IMG/VR virus record: IMGVR_UViG_3300029309_000090
Location: 314 to 37,903 of that record
DNA: 37,590 bases
Strand: one strand, 5' to 3'
Origin: a virus
In this document: positions 1,791 to 33,917 of the stretch, one piece after another
Position numbering within the stretch: the first letter of the stretch is position 1
How the letters are laid out: each line of letters begins with the position of its first letter
The notes under the pieces: model-generated
What the model saw: the letters and a program-made list of their open reading frames with translations, nothing else
What the model was told of the DNA's origin: nothing
The model's database searches: none
Program-made: the position numbers and the translations under genes

Positions 1791-2274
1791 ATATAAAACT
1801 GACTGGTTTAAGTTATCAGCATGGTCTGGGATATTATTATTCTGTCTTTTGTTTTGGGTCTCAATATTTAGCCTGTCTTTAAAAGCTGATGAAATGGTGC
1901 ACAAGTTTAAGTCTCCATCTTTCAGTGGGATCGGCACCTCAGCACATTATCTAACTATTGAGAACCAGCAATACACTAGAAAAATGACTATCAAGGAAGA
2001 GATCAAGGCTCTTCAAGAACAACTTAAAAGAGATAAAGAAAATACAACACTAGCCCGATTTATTAGAAACTTAGAAAGCCGTATATACGCTCAGATATCA
2101 AGACAGATTGTTGAGAATATGTTTGGCGAAACACCATCTACAGAAGGTATATTTGAACTAGAAGGTAATACAATTTCTTACACTATTGAAGACGGCATTA
2201 TAACTTTGACTATAACCCAAGCAGATGGCACAGAAACTATTATTCAACTTCCTTTCGGTGATTTTACTTTCTAG
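1771..2274 (+). CDS. csgF: CsgF-like curli assembly/transport protein
   Basis: A 167-residue protein with a charged N-terminus, a hydrophobic segment at about residues 15-37 ending in LKADE (signal peptide or anchor), and then HKFKSPSFSGIG. That phrase matches the mature CsgF N-terminus of the FxFRNPNFGG type, which inserts into the CsgG channel. The C-terminal half (FELEGNTISYTIEDG, ITQADGTETIIQLPFG) fits the CsgF beta-rich end, which binds nucleator or substrate. The central charged helix (KEEIKALQEQLKRDKEN) is longer than in enteric CsgF. The start is the ATG at 1771, since an upstream in-frame ATG at 1738 would lie deep inside the previous gene. csgG overlaps its 3' end by 50 nt. Confidence 0.82.
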   Translation: MTKEKIKYKTDWFKLSAWSGILLFCLLFWVSIFSLSLKADEMVHKFKSPSFSGIGTSAHYLTIENQQYTRKMTIKEEIKALQEQLKRDKENTTLARFIRNLESRIYAQISRQIVENMFGETPSTEGIFELEGNTISYTIEDGIITLTITQADGTETIIQLPFGDFTF

Positions 2275-3100
2275 TTGTGCGTTAAGTTTTGACCCAATAG
2301 AAAATAATTTACCTCCACTAGAAAGAGTAGAACGAGCAAAAATAGGCACCCTTTTAGTGCCAGCACTAGCTGATGTGAAGCTTTCAAGCAATCAAAAGCC
2401 AGTTGTTGCTATCTATACAGGATCCTTTGCAGATCAAACTGGTCAAAGAAGAAGCAACTCATCATATGCAACCTTTAGTTCTGCTGTAACCCAAGCCCCC
2501 GATGCATACCTAATAAGAGCACTCAAGCACGCAGGATCTAGACATGGAGGCTTCTTTGAAGTTGTTGAGCGTGTAGGTCTAGACAATGTTACTAAAGAAC
2601 GCCAGATTATTCGTAGCACACGCCAGGACTTCGGGGAGGAACAGAAATTACCAGCTCTAGTCTTCGCTGGTTTAATAATGCATGGCGGTGTGATATCTTA
2701 TGAGAGTAATATTGAAAGTGGTGGTGCTGGTGCCAGATATCTTGGAATTGGCATGTCCAGACAGTTTCGTAGAGACACCGTTACAGTATCTCTTAGAACA
2801 GTTTCTGTTACCACAGGCAAAGTATTACTAGAGGTACTTGTTACAAAGACTATACTTAGTGCTTCTTTAGATCAGGATGTATTTCGCTTTGTAAGTGATG
2901 AGACTGAGCTAGTGGAGATAGAGAATGGTTTAGTAAGAAATGAATCAATAGACATTGCTTTGCAGACGGCAATAGAGACAGCGGTATTACAAACTATAAA
3001 AGAAGGAAACCTAAAAGGTTATTGGAGTATAAATGAATTTGAAAAGATTGAAATTGATAAGCCTTGTGATGCTGATGAGTGCATCAACATACGGGGCTGA
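2225..3100 (+). CDS. csgG: CsgG-like outer-membrane curli secretion lipoprotein
   Basis: A 291-residue protein close to the usual CsgG length. It has a lipoprotein signal with lipobox LLSSC (Cys18). Family landmarks appear in order: VAIYTGSFADQTGQ, FSSAVTQAPDAYLIRALKHAG (constriction-loop region and first helix), ERQIIRSTRQ, GGVISYESNIESGG, ARYLGIG, VSLRTVSVTTGKVL, KTILS and VFRFV, then a helix corresponding to the C-terminal helix. CsgG forms a nonameric outer-membrane pore that exports curlins. Aligned by eye with E. coli, the pore Phe56 equivalent is kept, while Tyr51 and Asn55 positions appear to be Ser and Thr, with a Tyr two residues on. It overlaps csgF (50 nt) and the curlin gene (68 nt). 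Confidence 0.93.
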   Translation: MAQKLLFNFLSVILLSSCALSFDPIENNLPPLERVERAKIGTLLVPALADVKLSSNQKPVVAIYTGSFADQTGQRRSNSSYATFSSAVTQAPDAYLIRALKHAGSRHGGFFEVVERVGLDNVTKERQIIRSTRQDFGEEQKLPALVFAGLIMHGGVISYESNIESGGAGARYLGIGMSRQFRRDTVTVSLRTVSVTTGKVLLEVLVTKTILSASLDQDVFRFVSDETELVEIENGLVRNESIDIALQTAIETAVLQTIKEGNLKGYWSINEFEKIEIDKPCDADECINIRG

Positions 3101-3752
3101 TAACGAAATCTATGTCAGCCAGGCTGGTGCAAATGCAAATATTGATCTGGAGCAACTAGGCTCATCAAACATTATTGGTGGCTTAGATTCAGTAGCAGGT
3201 ACTCTGACCCCGTTAGATCTTGATGGCTTAAATCTTACGCTTGATATAAATCAAATCGGTAATAGCAATAAATTCTTAGGCGATATCTATGGTGACAATG
3301 TAACTGGATTTTTTGAGTTTGATGGTGATAGTAACACCTTCACAATACAAGCAGATCCTAATGACACCTATGGAATATCTAGCTCTAACTACAATGTTGA
3401 TGTTACTGGTAGTAGCAACACCTTTACACTTGATACAGGAACCTCAGCCTTATCAGAGACTTTGGATCTTGACTGGATAGTGCAAGGCGACAGCAATACA
3501 TTTGATTTTGATATAAACTATGATGGAGCAACCAACTATGTAGATGTTGATGGTGATTCAAACACAGTCAACTTTACAGGAAGCGGATACGCTGGTGGTT
3601 ATTTTTATTTAGATCAAACAGGAAGCAGTAGAACATTTGATATTACGCAATCATCAACTTTGGCAGCAGATTGGCTTAAGATACTTAGCACTGGTTCTAA
3701 TGGCACCGTGTGCATCGTACAAGACGATAGCGGAACCGCAACAAGCTGTTGA
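3033..3752 (+). CDS. Curlin-repeat secreted protein, candidate CsgG substrate (CsgA/CsgB-like)
   Basis: A 239-residue protein with a Sec signal peptide (MNLKRLKLISLVMLMSASTYG, likely cut near residue 21). The mature part is built of about eight repeats of roughly 22-33 residues around a (Q)xGxSN(T/x)F core: SN or SR at residues 45, 78, 100, 128, 154, 176, 199 and 222. Early repeats keep the curlin Q-x-G-x-x-N phrase (SQAGANAN, QLGSSN, NQIGNSN, DQTGSS). Later ones use D/T in place of Gln. It is Asp/Ser/Thr/Asn-rich and ends with two Cys (227 and 239). Curlins are amyloid fibre subunits exported by CsgG. GGAG lies 7 nt before the ATG. The gene overlaps csgG and the FecR gene. Confidence 0.78.
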   Translation: MNLKRLKLISLVMLMSASTYGADNEIYVSQAGANANIDLEQLGSSNIIGGLDSVAGTLTPLDLDGLNLTLDINQIGNSNKFLGDIYGDNVTGFFEFDGDSNTFTIQADPNDTYGISSSNYNVDVTGSSNTFTLDTGTSALSETLDLDWIVQGDSNTFDFDINYDGATNYVDVDGDSNTVNFTGSGYAGGYFYLDQTGSSRTFDITQSSTLAADWLKILSTGSNGTVCIVQDDSGTATSC

Positions 3753-4782
3753 TGTAGGAAATGTTTCGGAGCTCAATGGCTCTGCTCAGGTGGTTAGAGA
3801 TGAACCATTTGTGGCGGAGCTTGACTTCCAAGTAAAACAAGACGATCAAGCCGTAACCTCTAACGGCAGGATGGCTATTACTTTTTTAGATGATTCCATC
3901 GTTAGACTAACTGAACACTCAAGACTTACTATAAATGAATATGTTTTTGACCCCAATCCTTCTAAATCTAAGATGGCTATATCTTTTGGGCTTGGTACGG
4001 TCAGATTTGTTTCTGGTGCTTTAAATAAAATTGATAAACAGAATATTCAACTATCAACCCCAACTGCTAATATTGCTATTAGAGGTACAGACTTTACTTG
4101 CACGGTTGATGAGCTGGGGCGTTCTCTCATTATTCTATTGCCTGGTCTTGATGGTTTATCTAGCGGTGAGATTGTCGTTACTACGGCTGCGGGTTCTGTG
4201 GTCCTTAACCAACCCTACGAAGCAACGACAGTATCAGTTTTTGAAAATGAGCCATCAAAACCAGTAATACTAGATTTAGATTTAGCCCAAATAGACAATA
4301 TGCTTATTGTCAGCCCACCGAAACAAACTGCTTTATCTGCTGAAGAAAATACTACTGAGAAATCTAGCAATATATTAGATGTAGATTATCTAGAGTTTGA
4401 AGAGCTAGACATAGATTATCTGGATGAAGATGCCTTAGAGTTTTCAGAATTAGATATAAACTATCTTGATGTAAACTTTCTTGAAGATTTACTAGATGTT
4501 ATTGATGCTCTAGCTATTGCGGATGAAGAAGATCAGCTAGCAGCTAATATAGGTGCTGTGAATATTACAGGCACACAGTTTGGGCAAGATACAGATACGC
4601 AGGTAACAACATTTCTTACTGGTCAAACCCTTACTCTTATGCGTAGTGTAAGTGAGACTGCTAGAGTAGATATAGATTCTAGCAGCAGTTATACTGTAAT
4701 CTTTATACAAGATGGCATATCAAGAGTCATTAAGATAAACGGAGGATCTGGCGGTGTTATTAAAATAACCCAGAGTAATTAA
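3637..4782 (+). CDS. FecR-domain secreted/periplasmic protein with acidic LDxDYL repeats
   Basis: A 381-residue protein. The N-terminal half has a FecR-domain pattern: VSELNGSAQVVRD, LTEHSRLTINEYVFDP, ISFGLGTVRFVSG, IQLSTPTANIAIRGTDF. Free-standing FecR-domain proteins are often encoded next to CHASE2 cyclases, as here. The second half is very acidic, with four L-D-(V/I)-(D/N)-(Y/F)-L units coded at about 4375-4481, then a beta-rich tail. The start is uncertain. TTG 3637 gives a signal-peptide-like stretch (RYLALVLMAPCASY) and a 116-nt overlap with the curlin gene. ATG 3700 gives 360 residues, a 53-nt overlap and no clear signal peptide. I prefer TTG. No FecI-type sigma factor is nearby. Confidence 0.78.
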   Translation: MILRNHQLWQQIGLRYLALVLMAPCASYKTIAEPQQAVDVGNVSELNGSAQVVRDEPFVAELDFQVKQDDQAVTSNGRMAITFLDDSIVRLTEHSRLTINEYVFDPNPSKSKMAISFGLGTVRFVSGALNKIDKQNIQLSTPTANIAIRGTDFTCTVDELGRSLIILLPGLDGLSSGEIVVTTAAGSVVLNQPYEATTVSVFENEPSKPVILDLDLAQIDNMLIVSPPKQTALSAEENTTEKSSNILDVDYLEFEELDIDYLDEDALEFSELDINYLDVNFLEDLLDVIDALAIADEEDQLAANIGAVNITGTQFGQDTDTQVTTFLTGQTLTLMRSVSETARVDIDSSSSYTVIFIQDGISRVIKINGGSGGVIKITQSN

Positions 4783-6533
4783 TGAACAGGGTACTATTCA
4801 TATTACTTATAGTTCTAGGACTACCGCTTGTCTTTCAAAGCACACCAACAGAAATACTTAAGTTAAAAGTTTTTGACTACTTAGTACCAGAAAAAGAAGA
4901 GTCTGGTTTTTTTACTATACTAAACATAACTGAAGAGGATGTAGCAAGGGAGGGTGGTTATCCTTTACCAAGACAAAGATTAGCTGAAATACATATAGAG
5001 CTTTTACAAAAAGGTGCTTTAGGTGTGGGCTGGGTTCTTTCTTTCCCCCAACCAGACAGGCTAGGTGGTGATGAAGTATTTGCAGAAGCTCTTTGCTACG
5101 GTGGATCTGTTATAGGAATGTTTGAGGATGGTAGTGGTAACTATCCAGATACTTCTGGAACTGTAGTGCTTGGCAATAATAACAATGCAGGTATTTATTC
5201 TACAGGCGTTGTGCAAAACATAGACATTCTTAAAAACTGTTCTAATCAAGGTATAGCCGTTGCACCAACAGAAGTTGATAATCTAGTAAGAAGAGTTCCC
5301 TTAATGATGAAAACACCAGATGGTTTTGTTTCTGCTTACGGAACTGAAGTGATGAAAGTATTAGCAGGCAATAGCACATATATTATAAAAACTAATGATA
5401 ATGGTATAGAAGAAATAACTGTCCAGGGACTAGCTCCAGCAAAAACAGATACGCTTGGCAGAAAGTGGATATCTTGGGTAGACACCAAACAAACTACTCT
5501 AGAAGAAATGGATGTAAAAGGTAGATATGTTTTTGTTGGTTTTACTGCTAGTGGGATCATGCCACAAGTGGCAACACCAGTTGGATTATTAGAGCCACAT
5601 AAAATTCAAGCAGCATTATCTGAGTCAATTTTGATTCAAGACTCACCATATATCCCAGATTGGCACTTAGCAGCCGAAATTTTGATTTTCGCAATTTTTG
5701 TCGCTTCAGTTTGGCTTGTAATCAATTTTCTGACTATAACGAAGGGTCTAGGTATGCTTGGAGTTTTACTGCTCTCTACGGGCTTCTTAGGAGCTTTTAG
5801 CGTTCAGAAAGGCATTTTACTGGATTTTTCATGGACTTTTGTCTCAGAAATCATAACTTCTACGGTTGCCTTCTATTTAAACTACCAAAAACAATATAAA
5901 TTGCGTCAACAGATCAAAAAACAGTTTGAACATTATTTAGATCCAAGACAAGTAAAACAACTACAAGATAATCCTGACCTGCTGAGACTCGGGGGAGAAA
6001 AAAAATATTGCACATTTTTATTTACAGATGTCAGAGGATTTACAAATCTATCTGAAAAACTAGAACCAGAACAAGTAACAGAGATAATGAACAAAGTTCT
6101 AACAGCTCAAGTAACTTGCATACAAGCACATGGAGGTATGGTAGATAAGTTTATAGGTGATGCTTGTATGGCAATATTTAACGCACCGCTAGATTTAGAT
6201 AACCATGAAGCAAGAGCTGTAGCTTGTGCCCAGGATATGCGTACCGCTATCAAACAACTACAAAAAGAGTTACCAGAGCCAATAGCTATAGGCATAGGCG
6301 TAAACTCTGGTGAGGCTGTTATTGGCAACATGGGATCAGATACTAGGTTTGATTTTTCTGGTATAGGTGATGCGATTAATGTTGCAGCAAGACTAGAGTC
6401 TGCAACCAAAGAAGTTGGTGAAGACATACTGATAGGGCATGAGACTGCAAAAAGTGTTGATTTTAGTTTAAAATTACTTAAACCCATAAGAGTTAAGGGT
6501 AAAAGCAAACCTTTAGCTATTTATACAATATAA
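4782..6533 (+). CDS. CHASE2-domain class III adenylate cyclase (transmembrane)
   Basis: A 583-residue protein. An N-terminal membrane segment (about 1-20) is followed by a CHASE2-type extracytoplasmic sensor domain (about 21-290), three membrane segments (about 296-315, 322-340 and 347-367), a linker helix, and a class III nucleotide cyclase domain (about 405-583). Catalytic residues look complete: metal-binding D416 (FTDVRGFT) and D460 (KFIGDACMAIFNAP), purine-selecting K456 and D530 (SGIGDAINVAARLE), and N533 and R537. The Lys/Asp pair indicates ATP, hence cAMP. The domain order matches full-length bacterial CHASE2 cyclases, so this is not a remnant. The start overlaps the FecR stop by one base (TAATG), implying coupled translation. 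Confidence 0.93.
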   Translation: MNRVLFILLIVLGLPLVFQSTPTEILKLKVFDYLVPEKEESGFFTILNITEEDVAREGGYPLPRQRLAEIHIELLQKGALGVGWVLSFPQPDRLGGDEVFAEALCYGGSVIGMFEDGSGNYPDTSGTVVLGNNNNAGIYSTGVVQNIDILKNCSNQGIAVAPTEVDNLVRRVPLMMKTPDGFVSAYGTEVMKVLAGNSTYIIKTNDNGIEEITVQGLAPAKTDTLGRKWISWVDTKQTTLEEMDVKGRYVFVGFTASGIMPQVATPVGLLEPHKIQAALSESILIQDSPYIPDWHLAAEILIFAIFVASVWLVINFLTITKGLGMLGVLLLSTGFLGAFSVQKGILLDFSWTFVSEIITSTVAFYLNYQKQYKLRQQIKKQFEHYLDPRQVKQLQDNPDLLRLGGEKKYCTFLFTDVRGFTNLSEKLEPEQVTEIMNKVLTAQVTCIQAHGGMVDKFIGDACMAIFNAPLDLDNHEARAVACAQDMRTAIKQLQKELPEPIAIGIGVNSGEAVIGNMGSDTRFDFSGIGDAINVAARLESATKEVGEDILIGHETAKSVDFSLKLLKPIRVKGKSKPLAIYTI

Positions 6534-6541
6534 GGATAATT

Positions 6542-7024
6542 ATGGCATTAAAAAATTTACTCAAAAATGTAGTCGGTGCAGTAGCTCCAACACTAGGTAC
6601 AGCAATCGGTGGACCTATGGGTGGTATGGCAGCTAATTTAATAGCTGAGACACTTGGGGTACCAAACAACCCGAAGTCGATAGAAAAAGCTATTGCTGAA
6701 GCAACACCAGAACAAATGTTACAACTTAAAAAAGCAGAACAAGACTTTGAAAAACAAATGAAAGAGCTTGATGTTGATGTTTACAAGCTTGAAGCACAAG
6801 AAAAACAAGATGCAAGAAAACATTTTTCAAAAGATTGGACAACAAGAATTATGGGCATAGCTACACTAGGAGGCTTCCTTGGTTACATATTTTTAGTAAC
6901 TTTGCAGCCACCAGAACAAAATAGTGAAGCTTTAATTAATTTAGTTCTAGGATATTTAGGTGGATTGGCTAGTGCTGTGATATCTTTTTATTTTGGAGCT
7001 TCTAAATCTAAGGAGGACAAATGA
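6542..7024 (+). CDS. Phage holin (3-TM type)
   Basis: A 160-residue protein. A Gly/Ala-rich N-terminal helix (GAVAPTLGTAIGGPMGGMAA) is followed by a long charged helix, then two clear membrane segments (about 100-120, MGIATLGGFLGYIFLV; and 131-153, LINLVLGYLGGLASAVISFYFG). This matches the phage '3TM holin' architecture. Holins form inner-membrane lesions that let endolysin reach the wall. It starts 8 nt after the cyclase. The lysozyme is not adjacent but about 25 kb away at 31888. Confidence 0.72.
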   Translation: MALKNLLKNVVGAVAPTLGTAIGGPMGGMAANLIAETLGVPNNPKSIEKAIAEATPEQMLQLKKAEQDFEKQMKELDVDVYKLEAQEKQDARKHFSKDWTTRIMGIATLGGFLGYIFLVTLQPPEQNSEALINLVLGYLGGLASAVISFYFGASKSKEDK

Positions 7025-12200: not shown

Positions 12201-13530
12201 TAGATTTGCCATAGTGCCTTCATCTGGTAGCGGACAAGTGTCGCCATTTACTGTGCTTACAAGTACAGACGCTGATGGTAACGCAGCTGGTGTTTATATA
12301 GATACAGCCCTTATTAAAAATGCTTCTATACAAGCAGCCCAAATAGGAGCTCTTAATGCTGATTTAGTAAATGCTGTTGATATAGATGCAGACTCGATAA
12401 CAGTAGGAACTCTTGGTGCAGATTTTATTGATGTTAGTGGTGTTATTACTGCTGGCAGTTTAGTTTCACAAGGTAATCTATCTACAGACGGACAAACTAC
12501 TATACATGGTGGCAACATTGAAACGAATACTATTGCTGCCAACAAGCTAACTATTACGCCACTAGAATCTGGGGGTGCAGCAGCAGATATAAATGCTAAT
12601 GCTACAACTATTGACGGTGGCAAAATCACAGCAAATTCCATTACTGTAGATCAAATTAATACTCAAAACTTTCTTTTGCCCTCAGAAGGTGGCTTAACTT
12701 CTGGATCTGTAATAGGAAACTTTAACAACAACAGTATGAGATATGCATTTGTAACATCTATTGGCTCTGGTGCTGGCTTTTATACTGGTTTCGTTAGAGC
12801 GGTAGGAGGCACAGGACAGGTCAAAACTATAAGATTTTTATTTGGTGATGGTACTCATGGACCAAGCTCTTCTAACAACATAAACACTACTGTTACTACA
12901 AATGGCGATGACACACCAAGTCTTATTGAAAGTAGTGCTGGCGTGATTCACATAACGCCTTTACTAGAAAATATGCATGGTCATATATCTCAGTCTAGAC
13001 TTGTTTCAAGTTCTGACACTGCAAACATTCCTTTAGCATTTAGATATACAGGATCTGGTACTGTAAAGTTATTTATACAAGCACAAGGCGATAGTAATAA
13101 TGTGCAAGTAGGATCAGTAGAAGCTAGATTTATTAAGTTTGGTATTGATACTCCAGATCAATTTACATTCCAAGATGTAAGTGGGGCTACTACAAGCACT
13201 TTACATACATCAAATACCATAACTCTAGGCGGTCAATTTACATCAGCTACAGCTGTGCTTACTGGAACTGGATCACCTGAAATGAGCAAAAATGGAGGAA
13301 CTTTTTCATCATCTTCAGTTACCGTTAGCTCTGGTGATACTCTACAAGTTAGACTTACAAGTGCTGCTGGAGCTGGTTTATCAAGATTTGCAACAGTTAC
13401 AATAGCAGAAACATCTGATACTTATTCAGTTCAAACAACACCATCTAATCAAGGAGGCAACCCAGGCAACCAAGGAGGCAATCAAGGTGGCAATCAAGGC
13501 GGCAACCAAGGTCAAGGACAGGCACCATAA
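9277..13530 (+). CDS. Large tail fibre / host-specificity protein (gpJ-like), with repeat modules
   Basis: A 1417-residue protein starting with GTG that overlaps the previous stop by one base. Domains in order: a basic N-terminus (FLKKKKKN); a fibronectin-III-like region at about 90-180; a long zone of alternating coiled coil (NASAISTLxxxV) and six modules with a GD(L/I)W(I/F)(D/E)(T/S) core followed by (L/I/Q)YR-type beta strands (about 270-810); a gpJ/DUF1983-like region (GVYIDTALIKNASIQAAQIGALNADLV, about 1010-1040); beta-rich domains; and a GGNQ repeat tail. It is probably the main adsorption fibre. The modular repeats are prone to recombination, which can alter host range. Confidence 0.8.
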   Translation: MANEFLKKKKKNLTARGSFPIPRDFSIEGKRFAQSVQDTLQQLKGEKGNILDRAVTFQDLIDTGIAKQTFSVTGGGSDFVIDDNDKKDGVANATAPTGFTASGAFQNILLSWDFPDYAGHSHTEIFVSNSNSFASRTFLAQTTASVFSHQVGNAATKYYWIRHVNQNDEAGPFNSETGTSASTAVDVGAVMTQLSEEIKLLPGFNTLNTDMNITISGTQRTLQATLENINTLAATASTNVSNLTSNTPRVIRSDSEPTQRSDGTSLQAGDIWIDTDSSPNQNELFVYTGSTFAATTAGSTSSSDQTLSTSIASNGTAISQNASDILLVAGVSDNADISTSINITSLNASITNSTTGLQANANAISTLSGTVTSQGNTISTLSNNVTELQNTLTGFNSSSTVATAISGLQTSINQNGANITTVSQSVSALNNEVDLKATTFIQDNPPTATAIGDLWIDSNDSNKLYRATATTNSNWVAVGDTSGLHVFAQDNEPTARPDSSTLQEGDIWFDTSDNKKQYRYNGSAFVLVDDSRISANSSAISTLDSEVTALDGVVTSNSSKILALENTVDDSSTGVNATASALSTLSNQVTSIPVNFIQANAPTGTLTTGDLWIDSDDNQLYRYDGNNWVSVRDSVITSNSEAITSLQNVVNNGSTGVSANASAISTLQTEVFGSGSASASRIDALESTVNNGTSGVTANASAISALSTKVDTKNKSFVGTDQPANNTANDLRTGDLWIETDDNNKLYRWSGSAWVPLAPTGLQTFAQSTTPTATSIGDIWIDTGDQNKIYRWNGSTWQLLRDGLITANASSITAISSELGISFDARVTTNNGTKNLDVQTMSSGSSTAHNITNADITNGVFLSLKGFSSTGGLSAEQLNRTFKVVSRLTSTTLRVEVAGTNANASATSSIVTNGATIGTNAGVLQLAETTTNTLGQADASYVLQVNSNGHIAGFVVQSSTSPSGQQTSNVVFQADRFAIVPSSGSGQVSPFTVLTSTDADGNAAGVYIDTALIKNASIQAAQIGALNADLVNAVDIDADSITVGTLGADFIDVSGVITAGSLVSQGNLSTDGQTTIHGGNIETNTIAANKLTITPLESGGAAADINANATTIDGGKITANSITVDQINTQNFLLPSEGGLTSGSVIGNFNNNSMRYAFVTSIGSGAGFYTGFVRAVGGTGQVKTIRFLFGDGTHGPSSSNNINTTVTTNGDDTPSLIESSAGVIHITPLLENMHGHISQSRLVSSSDTANIPLAFRYTGSGTVKLFIQAQGDSNNVQVGSVEARFIKFGIDTPDQFTFQDVSGATTSTLHTSNTITLGGQFTSATAVLTGTGSPEMSKNGGTFSSSSVTVSSGDTLQVRLTSAAGAGLSRFATVTIAETSDTYSVQTTPSNQGGNPGNQGGNQGGNQGGNQGQGQAP
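13449..13516 (+). repeat. 12-bp-type tandem repeats encoding GGN(Q/P) tail of the fibre
   Basis: Imperfect tandem copies of GGNGGCAAYCAA encode a Gly-Gly-Asn-Gln tail at the C-terminus of the large fibre protein. The copies differ at third codon positions, as expected if the protein repeat is selected. Copy number may vary between relatives. Confidence 0.75.
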
Positions 13531-13871
13531 TGGCAGTACATAATTTCAATTACACATTTGAATTTGTTTCTTTAAAAGCAGTTCTTATAGATGATACAAA
13601 GATAGTCAATCAGGCTACTTGCAAGATATCAGCAGTAGATCAAACTGATTCAAGTAAAACAGGATCTTCTTTGGAAACAGTATATTTTTGCCCATATGAC
13701 AGAGCAAAAAGCTTGCCAGACAGCAGCTTTATAGACCTAGATTCTTTAACAGAGTCAAATGTTGTTGAGTGGGTTAAAAAAGTTTACGAAGATAATTCTA
13801 GTTTAGATGCATTATTTACATTTTTAGTTTATGGTGCAGATGTATTAAACCCACCAGAAGAAGGCGGATAA
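13530..13871 (+). CDS. Small phage protein downstream of tail fibre, unknown function
   Basis: A 113-residue protein whose ATG overlaps the fibre stop by one base (TAATG), implying translational coupling. The sequence reads as a mixed alpha/beta domain: FNYTFEFVSLKAVLI, then YFCPYDRAKSLPDSSFIDLDSLTESNVVEWVKKVYED. Short proteins of this type, with a strand-rich start and a helix beginning LTESNVVEWVK, recur beside phage tail fibre genes, but their function is unknown to me. It could be a fibre chaperone or a minor virion protein. Confidence 0.6.
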   Translation: MAVHNFNYTFEFVSLKAVLIDDTKIVNQATCKISAVDQTDSSKTGSSLETVYFCPYDRAKSLPDSSFIDLDSLTESNVVEWVKKVYEDNSSLDALFTFLVYGADVLNPPEEGG

Positions 13872-23236: not shown

Positions 23237-24049
23237 TTAAGATAGCAAAGTATTTACATTCTCACAAGCTTCACTCAGATGGTCTTCTGACAAGTGTGCG
23301 TATCTATTTACAATATTCGGACTAGACCAGCCACCTAAATGTTGAAGTGTGTAAAGAGGTGTGCCATTTTGCACATGATACGAAGCCCAGGTGTGTCTAA
23401 TGTCGTGCCATCTAAATCCCTCCAGTCCAGCTTTCTTTAATGCGTTATACCAGCCCGTGTTAGACGCTCTGCTGATCTTTCTGCCAGCATAGGTAAAAAC
23501 ATAAGGGCTTTTCTTTTCAATCGATTCTAAGAGCTCTCTGCACTTCTGATTTATTGGCACGCATAAAGATCTACCATTCTTGGTTTCAACACCATCTATG
23601 GCTATTTGATTTTCTTTAACATCTTCCCATTTTAAATTGAAGCAGTTGGACATGCGAACCCCAGTTAGGAGGGAAAAGACAAAAGGCTTCTGGAGGTGTT
23701 TGGGTAGAACCCTATGAAGCTTTTTGATGTCTTCCACAGTAAAGTATTTTGTTCGCATAGCTTGAACCTTCACCTGTTTTATAATGGGCTTGTTATCCAA
23801 CCACCCCAACTCTTCATAAGCGTACATAAGCACAGCTCTGAAGAAACTTAAATATCTGTTTACTGTTCCTGGAGATCCTTTGATGCCAGACTTAATCTTT
23901 GCAATATCGCTTTTCTCTAAAGCATTTATATCTTTATCTTCTAACAGTGGATCAAAATATTTTCTGTAGGTAAAATCATTCTTACCCATGTTATTGAATC
24001 TGTAATACTCTTTAACTGCTTTCTTCCATGTCTTCATTGCTTTTCTCAA
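23237..24049 (-). CDS. int: Tyrosine-recombinase phage integrase
   Basis: A 270-residue integrase with an N-terminal core-binding domain and a complete catalytic set: R132 (LLTGVRMSN), K157 (ETKNGR), H215 and R218 (WHDIRH), W241 in the second His/Trp position (LGGWSS), and nucleophile Y250 (VNRYAHL). This enzyme integrates and excises the phage at att sites, so the phage is probably temperate. The start is TTG 24049 or ATG 24037. It is convergent with the giant virion gene across a 58-bp gap and ends the leftward recombination operon. No repressor or excisionase could be identified in the window. Confidence 0.95.
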   Translation of the reverse strand: MRKAMKTWKKAVKEYYRFNNMGKNDFTYRKYFDPLLEDKDINALEKSDIAKIKSGIKGSPGTVNRYLSFFRAVLMYAYEELGWLDNKPIIKQVKVQAMRTKYFTVEDIKKLHRVLPKHLQKPFVFSLLTGVRMSNCFNLKWEDVKENQIAIDGVETKNGRSLCVPINQKCRELLESIEKKSPYVFTYAGRKISRASNTGWYNALKKAGLEGFRWHDIRHTWASYHVQNGTPLYTLQHLGGWSSPNIVNRYAHLSEDHLSEACENVNTLLS

Positions 24050-24122
24050 ATAATTTGTTTGATTGTTTTTGTAGCGATCTCTCTACGCATTTGTCTATTA
24101 GGTTCCAAAACCAATCAATCAT
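24012..24122 (-). CDS. Tiny ORF (36 aa) between membrane protein and integrase
   Basis: A 36-residue ORF (begins MIDWFWNLIDKC) whose ATG overlaps the end of the 48-residue gene (ATGATTGA, start and stop interleaved) and whose 3' end overlaps the integrase start. The tight coupling is the main support. It has an amphipathic, Trp-containing start and a charged Ser/Glu-rich end. Small basic excisionases sit in this place in some phages, but this one is too short and acidic at its end to call. Confidence 0.4.
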   Translation of the reverse strand: MIDWFWNLIDKCVERSLQKQSNKLFEKSNEDMEESS

Positions 24123-24261
24123 CTTTGTTTTTTTTCTCCCACGGAAACGGTATGTGCTTTCCTTGTCTTTTCTCCTCCGCCATGTGCACAGCTATATAGC
24201 AAAGAAAGCCCATACCAGCTAACATCATTAATCCAAATATATGACTTAGTATTTCTGTCAT
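24115..24261 (-). CDS. Small membrane protein (48 aa)
   Basis: A 48-residue ORF with one transmembrane helix (residues 3-26, including IFGLMMLAGMGFLCYIAVHMA) and a basic cytoplasmic tail ending PFPWEKKNKDD. The ATG overlaps the nuclease stop (ATGA at 24258-24261), so it is very likely translated with it. Function unknown. A superinfection-exclusion or membrane-anchor role is possible but not shown. Confidence 0.6.
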   Translation of the reverse strand: MTEILSHIFGLMMLAGMGFLCYIAVHMAEEKRQGKHIPFPWEKKNKDD

Positions 24262-31692: not shown

Positions 31693-31886
31693 GCAAGAAA
31701 GAAGAACTTATGACTAGGTTTGTACAAAAAGGACATGATAGAGTCGTGCTTAAATGGATACCCAAGAACCCATATGGTAAACGCAACAAAAACAGTGGTT
31801 GGATCTACAAGCTTGCTGGTGATCTTGAATGGCACAAACTAGGCAACAATTTTGAAGATGCCTTAAAAGAAATTGAGTATATTTAA
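31686..31886 (+). CDS. Small phage protein, unknown function
   Basis: A 66-residue basic protein. ATG 31686 is used, though a GTG at 31680 would also fit. Phrases are RFVQKGHDRVVLKWIPKNPYGKRNKNSGWIYKLAG. It overlaps the preceding gene by 7 nt and ends one base before the lysozyme ATG. Nothing further recognised. Confidence 0.5.
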   Translation: MLSKKEELMTRFVQKGHDRVVLKWIPKNPYGKRNKNSGWIYKLAGDLEWHKLGNNFEDALKEIEYI

Positions 31887-31887
31887 A

Positions 31888-32391
31888 ATGTTTTTTAGAA
31901 AATCAGAGCCACAAATAACAAAAGAAGGTATTGAGCTTATAAAGTATTTCGAGGGATGTCCCACAGACTCTGAAGGTAATGCAGTTGCTTATCGTTGCCA
32001 GGCTAATAAAAAAACCATAGGGTTTGGCAGTTTATATCTTAAAGACGGCACTAAAGTAGAGGATGGCATGAAAATTACTATGCAAGAAGCAGAAGATCTG
32101 CTTGCACACGAACTCAAAAAGTATGAGAAATATGTAAACAGCTATGTGGAAGTAGACCTTAACTCAGATCAATTTTCGTCTTGTGTTGCTCTTTGTTTTA
32201 ACATAGGTGGAAATGCGTTTGCATCCTCCTCAGCCTTAAAAAGAATAAACGCCAAGGAGTGGGCTGATGTTCCAGAAAAAATAAAACTATGGAATAAAGT
32301 AACTGTTGATGGCGAAAAGGTGGTATCAGACGGCTTGGTGGCTAGAAGAGAAGCGGAGGCTCTGCTCTTCCAGTCCAAACCGTGGAGGTAA
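31888..32391 (+). CDS. Phage lysozyme, GH24 (T4-type), Cys variant
   Basis: A 167-residue endolysin. The GH24 active site reads E22 (KYFEGC), C37 (AYRCQANKKT) and T43 (KKTIGFGS). Cys replaces the usual Asp, a variant that is known and active in this family, and the Glu-Cys gap is 14 residues instead of about 8. Further support comes from SDQFSSCVALCFNIGGNAF and GLVARREAEALLF. It cleaves peptidoglycan after holin action. There is no signal peptide or SAR segment. An in-frame TTG at 31873 would add five residues. The holin genes are far away, near 1440 and 6542. Confidence 0.88.
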   Translation: MFFRKSEPQITKEGIELIKYFEGCPTDSEGNAVAYRCQANKKTIGFGSLYLKDGTKVEDGMKITMQEAEDLLAHELKKYEKYVNSYVEVDLNSDQFSSCVALCFNIGGNAFASSSALKRINAKEWADVPEKIKLWNKVTVDGEKVVSDGLVARREAEALLFQSKPWR

Positions 32392-32411: not shown

Positions 32412-33917
32412 TCACATATTCTTTAAAATGTGTGCAATAACATCTACTGTCCAACCATTACCCAACATCTTATATCTCTGTGTATTAGAAACACCATCAG
32501 TATAATTATCTGGAACAGTCTGAAGTCTCTCACACTCTAGAGGTGTAAGCTTTCTCCAATAGACATCATTTTTTGTCAGCACATTATCTTTCTGAACTGT
32601 GGATAAGTTGTTAGTCTTTTGGTCTCTTCTAAGTTCAAGCATCTGTGTAGTCTTACCAGCTACTGAACCTTTATGATCTTGTCTGACACCATCAACTTTA
32701 TATCTGCCAACCATTCTGCCACAAGCCACTTTTGGTTCTCTGTTGCCACCACCCATAGTATTTAGAGTTGGTGCTTTACCTTCTGGACTATAAACTCTTT
32801 TCAAAATGTCATGTCCATTGATATCAACAGCCGTGCCTATTTGAATTAGTTTATCTGCATTACCATGTGTAAGAGTGGGCGACTTTCCTTCATCACTATA
32901 AACCCTTTGTTTAGTTTCATAGACACCATCTTTGATCTCAAACTCCATGATCTGCTTATCAAAAGCATCTGTTGTTATTCCTAAAACTTCTTTTAATTTA
33001 TACCAAACATCATCACTTGGTATTGCAAAACTGCTATCAGTTCTAAACCAATGCTCTACTTTTGTAAGTGGCATGTCAGTTTCTATTGCTATCGTTTTGT
33101 TTGTTTTGCCAGAATAAGTTTTAAAAACCCTCAATAAATGCTGTAAGTTTGGTATATCAACTTTATGCTTTCTAACTTTTACTTTTTCAATAAGTTTTCC
33201 AACTTGTTGTGGTCTTCCTTTGTTATCACAAGCAAGATAATCTCCCTGTCTACCATTTTTGACATATTCCATTGCTGATAAATTACTAGCCTTTTCTTTA
33301 GTTTGATCTATCATGCAGTTTCTCTCCCCATTTCTTTTAACAAACTTGTCAGACATTTTTGTAAATTTCTGGGGTTCTTTCTCTAAAATATCTTTTAAAA
33401 CTATGCCCTTGTCTTTTGGTTGTGTTATGCCCTCAATGTTTGTCCAATAAAGCCTCTGCCTCGACTGGGCGGAAAGAAGAGAAGAATTAATCAAGATAGG
33501 CTCAATACCAAATAAAATCTCTGGATAACACTTTGACACTTGTTCTGATATCACATCAATAAACTCTTTCTTCATTCTTACATTTTCTAATAAGAAGTAT
33601 TTAGGTTTTATTTCTTTAAGTAGTCTAATAAACTCAAAGAACAATGCTGATCTAGGATCATCAAAAGCTAATTGTTTGCCAGCAAAACTAAAGCCCTGAC
33701 AAGGAGATCCAGCTAATATTAGATCGACATCTTTAAAATCTTCTGCTTTTAATTTGGTAATATCTCCTACCTGGACTGTTTCTGGATAGTTTTTTTGTGT
33801 GATTTCAATAGCATATTTATCAATCTCACTCGCATAATAAGTGTCGACAGATACTCCTAATTTATTAAGAGCAATCTGCCCACAACTCATACCATCAAAT
33901 AATGATAAGACCTTCAC
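32412..33917 (-). CDS. DNA (cytosine-5) methyltransferase
   Basis: A 501-residue C5 methyltransferase. Motif I LSLFDGMSCG, motif IV GSPCQGFS with catalytic C73, motif VI LLENV with E111, motif VIII QSRQRLYWTNI, motif IX LTPLECERLQTVPDNY and motif X MLGNGWTV are all present, so it should be active. The long target-recognition region (about 200-440) contains a helical segment (HWFRTDSSFAIPSDDVW) and a duplicated RVYSxEGKxPTL phrase. The target site cannot be read. No cognate restriction enzyme is visible, so it is probably an orphan that masks phage DNA. It is convergent with the lysozyme gene. Confidence 0.93.
   Translation of the reverse strand: MKVLSLFDGMSCGQIALNKLGVSVDTYYASEIDKYAIEITQKNYPETVQVGDITKLKAEDFKDVDLILAGSPCQGFSFAGKQLAFDDPRSALFFEFIRLLKEIKPKYFLLENVRMKKEFIDVISEQVSKCYPEILFGIEPILINSSLLSAQSRQRLYWTNIEGITQPKDKGIVLKDILEKEPQKFTKMSDKFVKRNGERNCMIDQTKEKASNLSAMEYVKNGRQGDYLACDNKGRPQQVGKLIEKVKVRKHKVDIPNLQHLLRVFKTYSGKTNKTIAIETDMPLTKVEHWFRTDSSFAIPSDDVWYKLKEVLGITTDAFDKQIMEFEIKDGVYETKQRVYSDEGKSPTLTHGNADKLIQIGTAVDINGHDILKRVYSPEGKAPTLNTMGGGNREPKVACGRMVGRYKVDGVRQDHKGSVAGKTTQMLELRRDQKTNNLSTVQKDNVLTKNDVYWRKLTPLECERLQTVPDNYTDGVSNTQRYKMLGNGWTVDVIAHILKNM

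Follow-up and report, generated by a model that had tools for sequence, protein, structure and literature searches.

The DNA analysed here (the window, meaning the whole stretch of 37,590 nucleotides) comes from the IMG/VR virus record IMGVR_UViG_3300029309_000090, a virus contig of 42,380 bases of which the window spans positions 314-37903. On its forward (+) strand lies a curli-type export cassette, whose final gene (4782-6533) encodes a protein of 583 amino acids (aa) combining a CHASE2 domain, three transmembrane (TM) helices and a class III adenylate cyclase (AC). This phage cyclase gene is genuine and intact, as confirmed by an open reading frame (ORF) with an ATG start, Pfam matches, catalytic residues, the ratio of nonsynonymous to synonymous substitution (dN/dS), a structural model and Foldseek comparisons, and its ATG overlaps the stop of the preceding FecR gene by one base (position 4782).

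A CHASE2-cyclase at the end of a curli-type cassette

Both domains of the 583-aa ORF score well over their Pfam cut-offs. The CHASE2 domain (aa 14-306, 4821-5699, +; PF05226, 3e-23), a predicted periplasmic sensor, has helices on both sides in the AlphaFold2 monomer model (mean predicted local distance difference test (pLDDT) 86.5, predicted template modelling score 0.65), where one N-terminal helix, CHASE2 and helices 295-316, 319-342 and 350-382 precede the catalytic part. This corresponds to the layout of a CHASE2 sensor (N-terminal TM helix, periplasmic CHASE2, three TM helices), the TM helices being those of the model. A transducer or linker (aa 371-404, 5892-5993, +; QQIKKQFEHYLDPRQV) leads to the catalytic domain (aa 408-577, 6003-6512, +), which matches the class III nucleotidyl cyclase profile Guanylate_cyc (PF00211, 4.7e-21; 75.7 bits against a cut-off of 21.9) and superimposes on Pseudomonas aeruginosa CyaB with a root-mean-square deviation (rmsd) of 1.7-1.8 Å and a target-normalised TM-score of 0.82-0.83 (Foldseek). 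The best solved relatives by sequence are likewise class III cyclases: CyaB and the Nostoc/Spirulina enzymes (3r5g, 6fht, 1wc1) have the same catalytic fold (rmsd 1.6-2.5 Å, 29-37% identity), but their sensor domains are unlike the CHASE2 of the window.

An earlier note on this DNA had described a full-length cyclase with six named catalytic residues, and both statements are borne out by the intact ORF with CHASE2 and Guanylate_cyc, and by the presence of D416, K456, D460, D530, N533 and R537, all found at these positions. In class III cyclases, a lysine together with an aspartate or threonine at the purine-specifying sites separates the adenylate from the guanylate type. These sites are of the adenylate type in the window and its relatives (K456 in 84/84 and D530 in 81/84 aligned sequences), which points to an adenylate-type enzyme with ATP as its probable substrate.

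Five genes precede the cyclase on the same strand. The first (1440-1790) encodes a cassette-specific protein of 116 aa that has a hydrophobic stretch in its N-terminal part, a coiled-coil-like remainder and the motif L-I-D-R-x-R-x-x-D-N (hereafter the small TM protein). It is followed by CsgF (1738-2274, with a start probably at the ATG at 1771; PF10614, 9.2e-17) and CsgG (2225-3100; PF03783, 1.6e-42), the outer-membrane pore of type VIII secretion, so that both Pfam marks of a type VIII (curli) system, the CsgG pore and CsgF, are present. CsgE gave no match among those window ORFs that were run through Pfam, which were not all of them. Next comes p239 (3033-3752), a curlin-like repeat protein of 239 aa (CsgA/B-like) with a weak Curlin_rpt match (0.0043; 17.4 bits, below the cut-off of 20.7) and an all-beta model (pLDDT 76) for which Foldseek returned no PDB fold match with E <= 0.001. 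The last is a FecR-domain protein, predicted to be exported (3637-4782, true start probably near 3700; PF04773, 3.4e-9; phrog_37870, 9e-72). The mention of curli in the earlier note fits this series of CsgF, CsgG, curlin-like protein and FecR directly upstream of the cyclase.

The order small TM protein, CsgF, CsgG, curlin-like protein, FecR, (second curlin-like protein) and AC recurs in viral loci L001-L080 and in the phages HTVC008M and Melnitz, as far as the contigs extend. Among loci anchored on CsgG with at least 6 kb downstream (n=34), FecR and p239 are each present in 34/34 and a same-strand AC in 29/34, while all five partners (CsgF, CsgG, p239, FecR and AC) accompany the small TM gene in 36/36 loci with at least 7.5 kb downstream. 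A scan for CsgG that used just the window protein as query gave 9 close loci, and a second one was made with an alignment. The recurring gene order gives good support to a link between the cyclase and a surface cassette.

Spread, selection and a second export cassette

How common are such enzymes in viruses? The earlier note held them to be very rare in phages, which is true of cultured phages and not of marine viral contigs: a scan of IMG/VR with the window protein returned at least 595 relatives, among 600 stretches listed, while a phages collection of 50,697 records gave 9 matches, six of which span 80% or more of that protein (HTVC008M, two entries at 34.5%; Melnitz, four strains at 29.8%). 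Besides, Wittmers et al. 2022 (PMC9599517) already describe a curli module of pelagiphages, which they derive from Alphaproteobacteria and report as transferred between myo- and podoviruses; CsgF, CsgG, a CsgA/B-like protein, FecR and adenylate cyclase occur in it in the same order as in the window. Curli genes are also reported by Zaragoza-Solas et al. 2020 (PMC7029224) and Buchholz et al. 2022 (PMC9004378), in whose main texts the word "cyclase" does not occur. The curli-linked cyclase itself is therefore already published; the points that were not met with in the literature, and that merit attention, are the type I cassette presented below, the lack of an obvious receptor and the integrase-bearing carrier. 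HTVC008M (KC465899) and Melnitz (MZ577097) resemble the window in that a full-length CHASE2-cyclase closes the curli cassette, but differ from it as Kyanoviridae of 141-147 kb with two small TM proteins and an extra curlin-repeat gene between FecR and AC. A record named "Acinetobacter phage MD-2021a" (H7/H8; CAKLQH020000011.1, L086) looks like bacterial chromosome, with mfd, hscA, iscA, iscU and iscS by cyaA in the H7 region.

The catalytic residues are nearly invariant in the relatives. The metal-binding aspartates D416 and D460 are both kept in 84/84 aligned sequences, and the transition-state residues in 83/84 (N533) and 84/84 (R537); H7 is the row of this count with an arginine at the D530 position, and was left out of the profile and the tree. 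The hexad DKDDNR is found in 83/85 ORFs of the IMG/VR scan with the window protein, in 80/89 ORFs of the CsgG and small-TM scans (the rest being seven DKDSNR, one DKDNNR and one truncated), in 75/75 ORFs of a scan with the cyclase of locus L090 (see below), in four of six contigs from metagenome-assembled genomes (MAGs; the other two have an unknown letter), in one of two isolates, and in 49/49 alphaproteobacterial ORFs, as in the window. The best 80 loci of each scan were retained, and these ORF counts are not independent since the locus sets overlap, the same contig recurring in different scans.

For the cyclase, 1533 pairwise comparisons (Nei-Gojobori, all against all, dS up to 1.2, where saturation sets in) gave dN/dS values of up to 0.35 with a median of 0.22, and domain medians of 0.228 for CHASE2, 0.276 for the TM part, 0.209 for the cyclase domain and 0.064 for the linker, which is also the most conserved of all stretches. 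Lower medians, from fewer pairs, were obtained for FecR (0.134), CsgG (0.106) and p239 (0.102), and the window cyclase stands at 0.004/0.074 and 0.003/0.133 against its nearest relatives. By these estimates, the cyclase is under purifying selection, strongest in the linker. The earlier note had argued that selection keeps catalysis, naming purifying selection among phage homologues as a check and relatives with degraded catalytic residues as the contrary outcome; the expected selection is there, and the hexad is kept almost throughout.

A second type of cassette was encountered in L090, a MAG contig labelled Rickettsiales, where a 33%-identical cyclase lies beside a cadherin protein, a TolC-like outer-membrane efflux protein (5e-46), HlyD (1.7e-17) and two small TM proteins. 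Scanning with this cyclase gave 302 relatives from 303 stretches, and the full type I set (FecR-cadherin protein, TolC-like efflux protein, a short ABC-transmembrane-like protein of about 250 aa, HlyD, CHASE2-AC and two small TM proteins) is present in 8 of the best 80 of these 302. About six of the eight complete loci are distinct, as L318, L319 and L356 share coordinates and identities. The giant proteins of the complete loci are 1005-1696 aa long and match the phage FecR profile in 8/8 cases, and both of those scanned with Pfam (L318 and L358) contain FecR and Cadherin domains; no ATPase domain was seen in the type I cassette proteins scanned. Of those among the best 80 that extend 900 bases or more ahead of the AC (n=32), 25 have type I genes, 15 have genes matching the curli or FecR profiles and 0 have neither; small TM genes occur within 2.5 kb after the cyclase in 65/77 loci. 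No description of the type I cassette was found in the open-access papers searched.

Loci L318, L330, L340, L353, L358 and L090 are members of this marine-phage FecR-cadherin cassette, and two of the contigs concerned, L356 and L358, measure 148 and 138 kb. Three viral contigs (L314, L377 and L373) bear two CHASE2-cyclases each, one by type I or unassigned genes and the other (about 548 aa) by an inverted CsgF-CsgG-curlin-FecR series whose CsgG (417 aa) and FecR (739 aa) ORFs are uncommonly long. In L314 and L377, parts linked to type I secretion or to AC adjoin curli-linked parts. The two cassettes thus allow a direct comparison, where FecR and cyclase are common and the export machine differs.

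This arrangement bears on another idea of the earlier note, a part for the enzyme against nucleotide-based anti-phage defence, where it might for instance swamp defence messengers or compete with them. The sole point in its favour is that a phage makes a nucleotide cyclase. A gene acting alone against defence would not be expected to stay tied to secretion genes and FecR, as this one does in two unrelated kinds of cassette, and what a sponge would gain from a CHASE2 sensor is hard to see. We regard it as very improbable indeed; neither this nor the lysis-lysogeny role suggested in the same place gained positive evidence, no search for host defence systems having been made.

Bacterial relatives and a proposed sensor pair

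Sinorhizobium meliloti CyaD1-type alphaproteobacterial cyclases are described (PMC5498481) as CHASE2 plus class III cyclase proteins, as in the window. In the class of G001, a MAG labelled Candidatus Pelagibacter that holds a 67%-identical copy of the window cyclase, 203/385 genomes match the cyclase at 1e-40 or better. Loci fetched around the top alphaproteobacterial hits show a FecR-profile protein near the cyclase in 9/20, and the profiles for CsgG, CsgF and the small TM protein gave no match around any of these 20 bacterial cyclases. Three of five bacterial FecR proteins scanned are of 1364-1450 aa, with cadherin, Calx-beta, Big or RTX domains, and the phage type I cassette therefore resembles a bacterial neighbourhood of FecR-adhesin and CHASE2-cyclase. 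The alphaproteobacterial enzymes differ from the phage ones not only in having no curli or small TM genes as neighbours but also by their position in a 76-row tree, where 20 bacterial rows fall on one side of a single branch (Shimodaira-Hasegawa-like approximate likelihood ratio 100) and 56 viral rows on the other; this tree is an unrooted quick search with that one support measure, its bacterial rows are the top hits of one class, and CyaD1 lies outside it. Such a topology fits a single ancient acquisition by phages, after which the export part was exchanged, but is no proof of it.

Could the cyclase be a mere passenger, taken up with a bacterial adhesin operon and unused for cyclic AMP (cAMP)? 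Neighbouring FecR and CHASE2-cyclase genes do exist in bacteria, and three CsgG loci do without a cyclase. Against this, purifying selection and nearly constant catalytic residues extend across a deep viral radiation, which makes a passenger role very improbable.

The reading preferred here, to which we give a probability of about 0.6 as a whole, is that FecR and CHASE2 monitor an exported surface structure and set the output of the cyclase. The cassette would place the CsgG/CsgF pore and the curlin-like protein into the host envelope during infection (or lysogeny), on the periplasmic side, exported FecR and CHASE2 would jointly sense the state of the structure built there, the conserved QIKKQFEHYLDP linker would relay this state to the cytoplasm, and the cyclase there would then make cAMP. 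Confidence is higher for the parts that can be read from the DNA itself, namely the intact catalytic site, the purifying selection, the fixed last place of the gene, its overlap with FecR, and the return of FecR plus CHASE2-cyclase in the second cassette; we infer the contact between FecR and CHASE2, the thing sensed and everything downstream of cAMP.

Two bacterial systems support by analogy a gating of cAMP by FecR and CHASE2. The Burkholderia BiofilmReg operon (PMC5192318) associates a LysM-FecR protein, a CHASE2 histidine kinase and a response regulator: as in the window, an exported FecR-domain protein adjoins a CHASE2 membrane sensor, in a system tied to biofilm formation, but the output is a histidine kinase and not a cyclase, and the parts of that paper available to us report no curli or type I secretion genes. 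In S. meliloti, CyaD1 with its CHASE2 deleted gives constitutive cAMP (PMC5498481), a precedent according to which CHASE2 may act as a brake on cyclase output.

Several observations weigh against the proposed monitoring of a surface structure. The curlin identity of p239 is weakly indicated by its scores, and Melnitz has a serine at the N533 position. Five of the 34 CsgG loci have no co-directional AC (L195, L197 and L206 lack it, and L202 and L222 have it on the opposite strand), showing that the export cassette can exist without one. Furthermore, the cNMP-binding domain PF00027 was detected in 0/3 of the window record, HTVC008M and Melnitz, in 0/20 long viral records, and in 9/118 genomes of the SAR11 family (defined here as the family of G001), for a match in 10/14 control genomes. 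The product of the cyclase is consequently left without an obvious receptor, and its output unexplained. As a separate observation, a small heat-shock-like protein gene stands beside the opposite-strand cyclase of L202 and L222.

The same counts bear on the hypothesis that phage cAMP reprograms host transcription (metabolism, curli, lysogeny) via a CRP-type regulator. Such an effect is documented in S. meliloti, where cAMP from the CHASE2-deleted CyaD1 drives Clr-dependent succinoglycan production (PMC5498481), and the host of the window phage could have a CRP, since this host is unproven and the GC content of the window (about 38%) is above that of two SAR11-family stretches (0.29-0.30). The scarcity of PF00027 in the SAR11 family and its absence from all 23 phage records searched speak against it; among the SAR11-family matches, one is a 246-aa CRP/FNR-type ORF with FNR-like N-terminal cysteines, and the others lie in larger ORFs. 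Reprogramming through CRP appears improbable, and the metabolic reset via cAMP-CRP imagined in the earlier note is doubtful if the host is SAR11.

PF00211 was found in 2/118 SAR11-family genomes (G001 and G037), in both cases inside phage cassettes; judged by PF00211 and PF00027, the two profiles used, the sampled genomes thus encode no class III cyclase outside phage DNA and in most cases have no receptor of the usual kind. It is conceivable, though rather unlikely, that FecR and CHASE2-cyclase form an exchangeable unit set on at least two export machines, which sends cAMP into hosts mostly without class III cyclase or recognised cNMP receptor and acts on a new cAMP target, encoded by host or phage. 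It appears that cells of the ocean's most abundant bacteria, once infected, receive surface fibres or adhesins from their phages together with a second-messenger enzyme that the sampled SAR11 genomes lack. If the cyclase is active in SAR11, there should be a receptor for cAMP, either a host one so far overlooked or one supplied by the phage, and either outcome would alter the view of cAMP signalling in streamlined bacteria.

The small TM protein, neighbouring genes and the carrier phage

The small TM protein, of 116 aa in the window and present as pairs of 75-145 aa in other phages, was considered as a cAMP effector, an idea whose appeal is that this protein is confined to the cassette and in many cases more conserved than CsgG. 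In the phages collection it occurs in 6 records, exactly those with a full-length cyclase, and in 1/289 alphaproteobacterial genomes, on the phage-like contig of G001. A search in 12 viral records matched five, of which G534, G535 and G536 have no detected AC and G510 and G511 have both, and the small TM gene was not found in seven AC-bearing records (G528-G533 and G515, of 117.8 kb). The effector idea was set aside as weak because the two genes come apart. The protein keeps 66-94% identity between phages whose CsgG shares about 50-60%, and its LIDRxRxxDN motif recurs in paired genes of other phages. PMC9599517 names a histidine kinase before CsgF, which probably corresponds to the membrane protein of 93-116 aa seen here. 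The 116-aa protein of the window gave no HisKA or HATPase match at E up to 5, and only YvrJ at 0.27 (Pfam), so the kinase label is probably wrong if the gene is the same.

Alternatively, the cassette could act on the envelope, tuning its permeability or the moment of lysis: pore and small membrane proteins would be holin-like, and the cyclase would set when they act. A lysis role for the CsgGF pore has been proposed by Buchholz et al. (PMC9004378), the window cassette adjoins a 3TM-holin-like gene (6542-7024; GTA_holin_3TM 0.029, below cut-off), and spanin- or lysozyme-like genes follow AC-less cassettes. The endolysin of the window is, however, distant (31873-32391), and AC and small TM protein are uncoupled, the seven AC records above having no TM gene anywhere and L195, L197 and L206 a TM gene and no AC, which leaves this alternative quite improbable beside the monitoring role preferred above.

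Downstream of the cyclase, the 3TM-holin-like protein is followed by a nuclease and by internal virion and tail proteins. The record also carries integrase, Erf, RecE-like, O-like and DnaB-like genes, with terminase and portal near its end. By terminase, portal and internal virion protein, the nearest phages are Roseobacter, Pelagibacter, Vibrio, Aeromonas and Stx-type ones (29-36% identity), and these three proteins are unlike those of the Wittmers phages as far as they can be compared. In contrast to those phages, the window copy sits in a 42-kb record with an integrase, a word found nowhere in the main text of PMC9599517. An integrase domain was detected in 6/15 records searched, including L003, L018 and L032, whose internal virion and tail proteins are akin to those of the window; L002, L005 and L015, related in the same way, are fragments of 14.7-29.4 kb without it. 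Because related records also carry an integrase, the window phage is placed in a podovirus-like, integrase-bearing lineage that may be temperate.

Just upstream of the integrase gene, 85 bases (24042-24126) are 96% identical between the window and L400, for about 78% in the gene itself, and form a possible attachment or regulatory site. No tRNA-like end was seen in the integrase regions compared (the window and five related records), and ARAGORN detected no tRNA in the window. Elsewhere in the window, a 113-aa protein (13530-13871) matches DUF7936 (3e-8) and, below threshold, the Thoeris inhibitor Tad5 (4e-4). A DNA methyltransferase ORF of 501 aa (32412-33917) has a 282-position match to phrog_116 spread over all 501 residues, which suggests an inserted middle part.

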